Shown: positions 15,650-17,924 of the stretch, piece by piece
Position numbering within the stretch: position 1 is the stretch's first letter
Layout of the letters: each line of letters begins with the position of its first letter
Assembly (NCBI GenBank): GCA_009840355.1
Contig: VXNZ01000046.1
Coordinates: forward strand, 62,001-126,000
DNA length: 64,000 nt
Direction: 5' to 3'
Origin: Chloroflexota bacterium
GTDB taxonomy: Bacteria; Chloroflexota; Dehalococcoidia; Lucifugimonadales; JADFKI01
Made by a program: the position numbers and the translations under genes
The notes under the pieces: model-generated
Databases searched by the model: none
What the model was told of the DNA's origin: nothing
Seen by the model: only the letters and a program-made list of their open reading frames with translations

Positions 15650-16195
15650 CTATTTGCCGGTGAGGATTGTGACCACCGTGTCGAAGATTTCGCCGGCATG
15701 TGCGCGAAGCTGCTCTTCGCTGAGTCCGGCTATCGGATGCGGCGTGAAGATGACCGGATAGCCGGACGCGCCCCACATTGCCGCCATCGAATTGGATGTC
15801 TCGATGAAGCGGTCGGTGCAGATAGTTACCGAGGGTATGCCTGCCTTTTCCACATGAACTCCGTCGTGCACACTGCACGCGCTGCACGACCCTCAATCGC
15901 CTATGCCGACAATTACATAGTCGCACTCCTCCGCCATCTCCGCGACGACGGCGGGGTCTGCAGGCTTGGACGCTGACGGCTTGGCGTGATACTTGACGCT
16001 GGCGATGCCGAAGCGCTGGTCGATGAGGTCGGTCAGCTGCTCTAGGTATTCCTTGGCGTTCACCTTGCTATCGTCGATGACGCCGACGCGCTTGTTTTTC
16101 AGGTCGTCGAGACGCGGCGCGCCCTCGAACTCCGGCACAATCGGCAGCGTCGTCGGGTCGATGAGTGTGTAGCGTGGCTTCGTCGCAGTTACCAT
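15650..16195 (-). CDS. UGSC-type selenoprotein (in-frame UGA at codon 101)
   Basis: Reading from ATG 16195 (GGGAGGA six bases upstream), the frame continues through a TGA at 15895-15893 to a TAG at 15652-15650, giving 181 residues with selenocysteine at 101. Around it the protein reads VIVGIGD-U-GSCSACSVHDGV. The part after the UGA (GIPSVTICTDRF, MAAMWGASGYP, FTPHPIAGLSEEQL) is fully conserved-looking protein, so the UGA is not a random stop. From recall, the motif matches the family annotated as UGSC (seleno)proteins, distantly related to glycine-reductase selenoprotein B; the reaction is unknown. A perfect hairpin (15863-15890) follows the UGA. The selenocysteine machinery is not in this window. 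Confidence 0.82.
15863..15890 (-). promoter_or_regulatory. Candidate bacterial SECIS hairpin
   Basis: Two bases after the UGA codon, the mRNA can form GTCGTGCA / TGCACGAC, an uninterrupted 8-bp stem closing a 12-base loop (GCGCGTGCAGTG). Bacterial SECIS elements lie inside the coding sequence immediately 3' of the UGA and are bound by SelB, so position and size fit. The stem encodes part of the SCSACSVHD segment, so it must satisfy both protein and RNA constraints. Confidence 0.7.
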
Positions 16196-16264
16196 ATTCG
16201 TCCTCCCAATATGCAGAGTATGATAAGTTAACATCGATGTACAGGATGGGCAGGATGTGTTGAG

Positions 16265-16504
16265 TTACAGGTTCATCATGCAGGCACAGCCGCCTTCCGC
16301 GCCGCAGCCGCCAGCGGGAACAGCTCCCGCAATCGCGCTCGTCTGCCCGCTGCCGTCCGCCGAGAACGAGGCGAACACGGATAACACCCGGCGAGATTCG
16401 CTGCCGCAATCCGGGCACGGCGCAGGATCGTCAATCTCGCTCATCGCGCGACGCTTGTCAAAGCGGTTGGAGCATATAACGCAGGAGTATTCGTAGATGG
16501 GCAT
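16265..16504 (-). CDS. FmdB-family zinc ribbon protein
   Basis: The 79-residue protein begins MPIYEYSCVICSNRFDKRR and has CPDCGSESRRVLSVFASF, giving the two CxxC knuckles of the FmdB putative regulatory zinc ribbon. The C-terminus adds GGCGAEGGCACMMNL, extra cysteines often seen in these small proteins. FmdB-like proteins are thought to regulate formamidase or amidase genes in some bacteria, but most have no tested role. It lies 69 bp upstream of the selenoprotein gene in the same direction, so co-expression is plausible. Confidence 0.82.
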   Translation of the reverse strand: MPIYEYSCVICSNRFDKRRAMSEIDDPAPCPDCGSESRRVLSVFASFSADGSGQTSAIAGAVPAGGCGAEGGCACMMNL

Positions 16505-16709
16505 GCTTTTCCTTTCTAAACAAGATGTATAGGATGGAGAGCAGACAGCTGAAGGACTATAAGATTATTGCTAGACTTTGTTCGCCCCATTCTAGGGTTA
16601 TCATTGCGTCAGGTCAACCAAGCGGCGATAATGAAGGAAGTTTACAATAGTCGCGCTTTTGGATTGGCGCTTTGGGCTGGCGAGTAGAAACTTCGCAAAA
16701 GGACACCAC

Positions 16710-17924
16710 ATGACTACGGCAGACACGCGGGCGGCGCTGCCCGATGAGCGGGGAAGATTCGGCGACTTTGGCGGGCGCTTTGTGCCGGAGACGCTTATGA
16801 GCGCGATCGAAGAGCTCGAGCGCGAGTACGCGGCGGCGCAGAGCGCCGAAGAGTTTCAGGCGGAGATGCAAGCGCTGTCGGCACACTATGTCGGGCGTCC
16901 TACGCCGCTGTACTACGCAGAGAACTTGACCGCAGAATTAGGCGGCGCACAGATATACATCAAGCGCGAAGACCTGGCGCACACCGGCGCGCACAAGATT
17001 AACAACGCGCTCGGGCAGGCGCTGCTCGCCAAGCGCATGGGCAAAAACCGCATCATCGCGGAGACCGGAGCGGGACAGCACGGGGTAGCCACCGCGACCG
17101 TGTGCGCGATGCTCAAGCAAGAGTGCATCGTCTATATGGGTGAAGAAGACATCCGCAGGCAGGCGCTGAACGTGTTCCGCATGCGGCTGCTGGGCGCGGA
17201 AGTGCGTTCGGTATCGTCGGGCAGTCGCACGCTGAAAGACGCCATCAACGAGTGCATCCGCGACTGGGTTACGAATGTCGAGGACACGCACTATCTCATC
17301 GGCAGCGTCGTGGGGCCGCATCCTTACCCTATGATAGTGCGCGACTTCCAGAAGGTGATAGGCGCGGAGGCGCGCGCGCAGCTGCTTGCCACCATCGGCA
17401 GGCTGCCGGACTATGCCGTGGCGTGCGTGGGCGGCGGCAGCAACGCGATGGGGCTGTTCTACGAGTTCATCGGCGACGAAAGCGTGAAGCTGGTCGGCGT
17501 AGAGGCGGGCGGCGAAGGCGTGAGTACAGGCAAGCACTCGTCCACGCTGACATCCGGCAGGGTCGGCGTGCTGCATGGCAGCATGTCCTACTTGCTGCAA
17601 GACGACGACGGGCAGGTGCAAGAAGCGCACAGCATATCGGCAGGGCTGGACTACCCGGGCGTAGGCCCCGAGCATAGCTGGCTGAGCGACACGCGCCGCG
17701 CCGAGTATGTCAGTGTAACGGACACGGAAGCGCTCGAAGGCTTTGAGCTGATGTGCCGCGCGGAAGGCATCATCCCCGCGCTGGAACCGGCGCACGCCGC
17801 GTACTACATATCGCAACTCGCGCCAACGCTGTCGCCCGACCAAGTCATCCTAATGGGCTTAAGCGGGCGCGGCGATAAAGATATGGACACCGTAGCCACC
17901 GCGCTCGGCGTCAGCGTACAGTAG
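16710..17924 (+). CDS. trpB: Tryptophan synthase beta chain
   Basis: The 404-residue protein matches TrpB throughout: [11 protein letters not shown] at the N-terminus, [19 protein letters not shown] with the PLP-binding lysine, [15 protein letters not shown], the PLP-phosphate loop [14 protein letters not shown], and [13 protein letters not shown] at the C-terminus. It condenses indole with serine to make tryptophan. The start at 16710 has AAAGGA six bases upstream; a longer frame from 16659 lacks this. No trpA or other trp gene is adjacent, so the beta chain is unlinked from its usual partner here. hemD follows on the same strand after a repeat element. Confidence 0.95.

Follow-up and report, generated by a model that had tools for sequence, protein, structure and literature searches.

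The window, a stretch of 64,000 nucleotides from the Chloroflexota contig VXNZ01000046.1 (positions 62,001 to 126,000 of the forward strand), carries on its minus strand a predicted selenoprotein gene of the UGSC family, together with the neighboring genes and RNA elements collected in Table 1. When the in-frame TGA is translated as selenocysteine (U), the coding sequence gives 181 residues with zero further stops, and the residues around U101 read ...DYVIVGIGDUGSCSACSVHDGVHVEKAGIP.... A sequence-only reading of the same DNA had joined two adjacent open frames through this TGA into one 181-residue protein with the motif GIGD-U-GSCSACSVHD. We confirmed this frame, on the minus strand, and the motif is present in the translation with Sec at 101. 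That the sequence beyond the UGA is protein, as also proposed, is borne out by PF24696 and NF041046 matches that span the codon, and by the TGA found at the same site in independent relatives (orthologues L029-L031, 87-98% identity). The nearest named records are all Chloroflexota metagenome-assembled genomes (SB0664_bin_29 at 98%, TM_07 and uncultured Dehalococcoidia), which we take, from the naming of the isolates, to be of sponge origin.

Table 1. Features of the UGSC locus (positions in the window)
Feature	Position	Strand	Evidence
UGSC-family selenoprotein CDS (predicted), 181 aa, U at residue 101	15650..16195	minus	profile matches, orthologues
In-frame TGA, predicted to be read as selenocysteine, codon 101	15893..15895	minus	U/Cys alignment column, Sec machinery
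Conserved SECIS stem-loop CGUGCA-GUG-UGCACG	15865..15879	minus	covariation in 52 Sec genes
8-bp hairpin of the sequence-only reading, arms 15890-15883 and 15870-15863	15863..15890	minus	preferred in folding of the window RNA, not conserved
Shine-Dalgarno-like GGGAGGA before ATG 16195	16201..16207	minus	sequence
FmdB-type zinc ribbon protein, upstream of UGSC	16265..16504	minus	PF09723 / TIGR02605
trpB, divergent neighbor	16659..17924	plus	neighborhood comparison
Cytochrome P450	14080..15504	minus	PF00067
ABM-like protein, 107 aa	13722..14045	minus	PF03992, 24.6 bits

The protein matches PF24696 over residues 11-179 (E 1e-55, 189 bits against a curated cut-off of 25) and NF041046 with 153.4 bits (curated cut-off 125). 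In a profile-based alignment, 68 distinct homologues have U at the Sec position, 7 have Cys and one divergent fused copy has T, and we did not see a family whose members all end at this position or carry an unrelated codon there, the pattern that the sequence-only reading had set against itself. The Cys forms include those of Arthrobacter, Natrinema, Halalkalicoccus, Embleya, Variovorax and Neorhizobium; the divergent copy (L085:1474-2037, G236:C21) reads TRSG, with T replacing Sec/Cys, and is perhaps inactive. Four UGSC genes, with one TGA each, are present in the window's genome. The family occurs in 30 of 60 relative genomes with exactly one TGA in every full-length match, nearly all matches in a wider phylum sample likewise have one, and no relatives were found in viral contigs. 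UGSC was described in 2008 by Zhang and Gladyshev. With 255 Sec-containing and 21 Cys-containing sequences, the UGSC-containing protein ranks among the commonest selenoprotein families of the Global Ocean Sampling set (PMC2398784), and a 2026 review lists it as functionally uncharacterised (PMC13188914). The window gene belongs to a family that was already known (PMC2398784, NF041046, PF24696).

The genome (3.28 Mb, 97% complete) encodes the machinery for selenocysteine insertion, with selA (531 bits), selB (341.9), selD (389.5) and tRNA-Sec (66.4) all scoring above cut-off and a tRNA-SeC called by ARAGORN. All four genes whose absence was to have spoken against the selenoprotein (selA, selB, selC for the tRNA-Sec, and selD) were therefore found. 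SelD is itself a selenoprotein in this genome, with one UGA in CAGUASKF (contig C14, L016:1501-2421).

Comparison of 52 distinct Sec genes identified a conserved element consisting of a 6-bp stem and a three-base loop, 13 to 28 nt past the UGA. In the bacterial SECIS model a stem-loop sits some 16-37 nt downstream of the UGA and its apical loop begins with G; the window's element agrees with this, its loop GUG opening with G at 19 nt. Among the 52 homologues, 96.5% of the stem cells are paired, changes on both sides of the stem occur in 19 cells versus 2.9 in shuffles (0/500), and sliding the pairing partner destroys the signal. At the third base of the Val codons in the 3' arm, G stands opposite C in 31 of 31 cases and C opposite G in 5 of 6; these are synonymous alternatives, with a Fisher p of 1.4e-5 that is only a guide because the sequences are related. 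Covariation was chosen as the evidence for the SECIS because setting the MFE against that of synonymous-codon shuffles gave little information (mean z of -0.90 in 51 Sec genes and +0.21 in six Cys genes).

The sequence-only reading had assigned the SECIS to an 8-bp hairpin (GTCGTGCA/TGCACGAC). That hairpin is exact and begins two bases past the UGA as described, but it is not the conserved element: one of its central pairs, at columns 9-30, forms in only 12 of the 52 genes, and its 3' arm is common to the 6-bp stem. Folding the window RNA in isolation does favor it (-17.3 kcal/mol with inner pairs, versus -7.6 kcal/mol for the 6-bp stem), whereas the 6-bp stem folds once the first 9-13 bases are removed. 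The 5' arm of the hairpin starts two bases downstream of the UGA, within the stretch that the decoding ribosome would be expected to occupy. Taken together, the sequence evidence supports a real UGSC-family selenoprotein gene whose UGA 101 is predicted to be read as Sec, with insertion putatively directed by the 6-bp stem-loop.

Of the genes around the window UGSC, trpB is conserved in the window's family and in G042, and the FmdB neighbor in these and also in G046. The ABM-like gene lies directly downstream of UGSC in L030, L031 and G004 with no P450 between. The P450 that separates the two in the window strain is shared with its near-twin SB0664_bin_29 (L029) alone and is absent from other close relatives. 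FmdB and the P450 do flank UGSC, as had been noted, but the P450 was rejected as a clue to its role: it is a local insertion and, because it is found in these two strains only, says little on function.

Nearly every UGSC adjoins, or is fused to, a member of an unnamed family of about 345 aa, which was first noticed in plasmid records as a hypothetical protein adjoining or fused to Cys-UGSC. This partner has invariant cysteines (C81 in MAGC, and C179; alignment A4). Searches with the family gave no NCBIfam match, no significant Pfam match and no PDB match of note, and it did not match the GrdB or PrdB profiles. Like UGSC, it occurs in 30 of the 60 relatives, and inspection of both tables indicates that these are the same genomes. 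Sec-form fusions of UGSC to the partner also lie on plasmids: that on the IncP plasmid p2-T1 of Acidovorax sp. T1 (L089:5923-7527) appears in the annotation as no more than a 96-aa hypothetical protein (WP_087748617.1) cut near the UGA, and the plasmid gene table of Paracoccus versutus pTAV4 lists no gene for its fusion (L094:5923-7532).

The window's genome has four UGSC genes and four partners. Those on C4, C14 and C39 form adjacent or fused pairs, which leaves two orphans: the UGSC of the window and a partner on contig C19 (74523-75548). In four more distant genera (G016, G021, G052 and G057), the orthologue of the window UGSC adjoins a partner. These four partners group with eight orphans in a single clade that has just these twelve members (support 100/100), and the UGSC-side tree has a matching clade of thirteen (99/93). 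Neighborhood and phylogeny, both read from sequence, show the C19 partner to be the predicted cognate of the window UGSC, encoded in trans, and the two proteins would be expected to make physical contact. The simplest reading is that an ancestral UGSC-partner pair was split in the window's lineage. On C19 the orphan partner comes a short way beyond trpE-trpG-trpD-trpC-trpF and is encoded on the other strand (L129:3811-10579). Both halves therefore adjoin trp genes (trpB, with FmdB, in the window and trpEGDCF on C19), which is true of the window's family and G042; this location may be a record of trp-cluster rearrangement, and we read no function from it.

Direct searches related UGSC only distantly to the protein B subunits of glycine and D-proline reductase. 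The NCBIfam model for glycine reductase selenoprotein B gave a weak match to the window protein (21.1 bits; 22.8 for the C14 paralogue), TIGR01918 scored 18.4 bits, below its cut-off of 65.45, and PF07355 matched neither this protein nor anything else in the genome. Many GrdB- or PrdB-like genes are present in the relatives, with a UGA just beyond the end of PF07355 (L099-L128). Using hhalign, we compared UGSC with Sec-domain alignments of such genes from the relatives, all of which read through a UGA at the Sec site. The resulting probability was 97.0% (E 9.7e-11), with U aligned on U; with the four motif residues masked it was 92.4% (5.4e-7) for PrdB-like and 69.5% (4.2e-5) for GrdB, and the controls of UGSC against the partner or TrxB reached at most 3.1%. 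The masked and unmasked comparisons therefore show UGSC to be a remote homologue, at the profile level, of the C-terminal Sec domain of protein B and not a member of that family, and it would be expected to have a similar fold. AlphaFold2, run on the window protein and three relatives (four sequences), gave a model of pLDDT 38 that was discarded, and no PDB sequence was matched when UGSC, the partner or Grd/Prd B served as query.

A TrxB-like gene shares the strand of the pair at 10 of 57 UGSC-partner loci (0.75 Mb) and is directly adjacent at several of them, where the density in 13 Chloroflexota genomes (17 hits above 200 bits in about 36.8 Mb) would predict about 0.35; most pair loci, the window's included, are without one. 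The TrxB-bearing loci belong to Actinomycetota, Pseudomonadota and Chloroflexota, and the gene order in Arthrobacter is trxB-trxA-partner-UGSC. Contig C39 of the window's genome encodes a 559-aa UGSC(UGTC)-partner fusion (L148:9112-10752), followed on that strand, some 4.3 kb further downstream, by a glutaredoxin-thioredoxin reductase fusion (L148:15060-16280). In this census, which ignored several antisense-ORF clusters, no shared neighbor of the UGSC loci implied a substrate. Genes of the phosphosulfolactate synthase family near Cys-UGSC pairs (L091:2660-3448 in Arthrobacter, L092:3443-3910 in Natrinema) are a possible hint of sulphonate chemistry.

These observations suggest that UGSC is the selenium half of a two-part reductase. 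On balance we favor, with a little better than even confidence, a thioredoxin-recharged two-component enzyme formed by the UGSC selenoprotein and its ~345-aa partner supplied in trans. SelA, SelB, SelD and tRNA-Sec would decode UGA 101 as Sec, and the resulting small Sec-domain protein would work with the partner made from C19. The partner would hold a small substrate, whose electrophilic carbon-heteroatom bond the U101 selenolate could then attack; C104 of U-G-S-C would resolve the intermediate to a selenylsulfide, and a thioredoxin/thioredoxin reductase system would re-reduce it. Glycine reductase is re-reduced by thioredoxin systems, which fits the mechanism that we infer for UGSC. Catabolic settings elsewhere hint that the substrates may be small organic acids or amides.

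Other explanations account for parts of these data. UGSC has been labelled thioredoxin-like in fold (PMC13188914, PMC2398784), and the profile homology conflicts with this label. A thioredoxin-like UGSC would be a thiol oxidoreductase for disulphide exchange or peroxide reduction, with U-x-x-C as a CxxC-type motif and the partner as its client; the UxxC with C104 suits such an enzyme, and TrxB neighbors would suit any thiol enzyme. However, no thioredoxin-clan Pfam hit to the window protein was obtained at E 0.1, the UxxC lies beyond the middle of the protein instead of near its start, and the profiles point to Grd/Prd protein B with the motif masked too, and we consider this explanation unlikely. 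A role in handling selenium, sulphur or a metal, in which UGSC, tied to the FmdB zinc ribbon and trp genes, would be a carrier and not a catalyst, draws on the retention of FmdB and trpB beside UGSC in the window's clade and on the trpEGDCF genes next to the orphan partner. Those neighbors are confined to the window's clade, though, and the intact pairs of G016, G021, G052 and G057 have others; elsewhere the pairs are surrounded by genes for catabolism, transporters, amidases and CoA transferases, which makes a handling role quite improbable. A split or decayed Cys gene, in which the TGA would be a genuine stop or a sequencing error, agrees with the two frames produced by mechanical ORF calling, but we regard it as highly implausible given that close relatives and tens of more distant genomes share the TGA, the stem-loop is conserved with compensatory synonymous changes, and the Sec machinery is complete.

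Under the two-component reductase reading, the link to the Grd/Prd Sec domain, the near-constant partner and the TrxB neighbors turn UGSC into a testable two-protein enzyme, and the Cys forms of the culturable Arthrobacter, Natrinema and Variovorax offer laboratory-ready models that do not depend on selenium insertion. In annotation, genes of the Sec form continue to be cut short or overlooked, as on the Acidovorax sp. T1 plasmid. More tentatively, and with somewhat less than even confidence, UGSC and its partner may represent a third Sec-dependent branch of reductive cleavage beside the glycine-type and D-proline reductases, one that would operate with thioredoxin reductase in aerobic bacteria and haloarchaea and be encoded as adjacent, fused or, in the window's clade, split genes.

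Set against the known UGSC family, the window gene is alike in its full-length match over the cut-offs, the UGSC motif, the SECIS and the existence of Sec and Cys forms, and differs in that the usual partner is not adjacent but on another contig. The UGSC/Unknown_1 fusion (Fig. S1A of PMC2398784) probably has the same second domain as the 559-aa UGSC-partner fusion of the window's own genome (L004). With GrdB/GrdF/GrdH and PrdB, UGSC shares a hydrophobic strand, U-x-x-C, then E-x-x-G-I-P-x-V and later an H/F-P-x-G-like motif, and glycine and D-proline reductase protein B (PF07355, TIGR01918, TIGR04483) likewise has thioredoxin reductase neighbors, as do some of the UGSC loci. UGSC has no counterpart of GrdB's long N-terminal region, and by Pfam or NCBIfam the partner is not the pyruvoyl protein GrdE or PrdA. 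UGSC, by contrast with the Grd/Prd systems, is found in aerobes and haloarchaea and scores under the cut-offs of their families.
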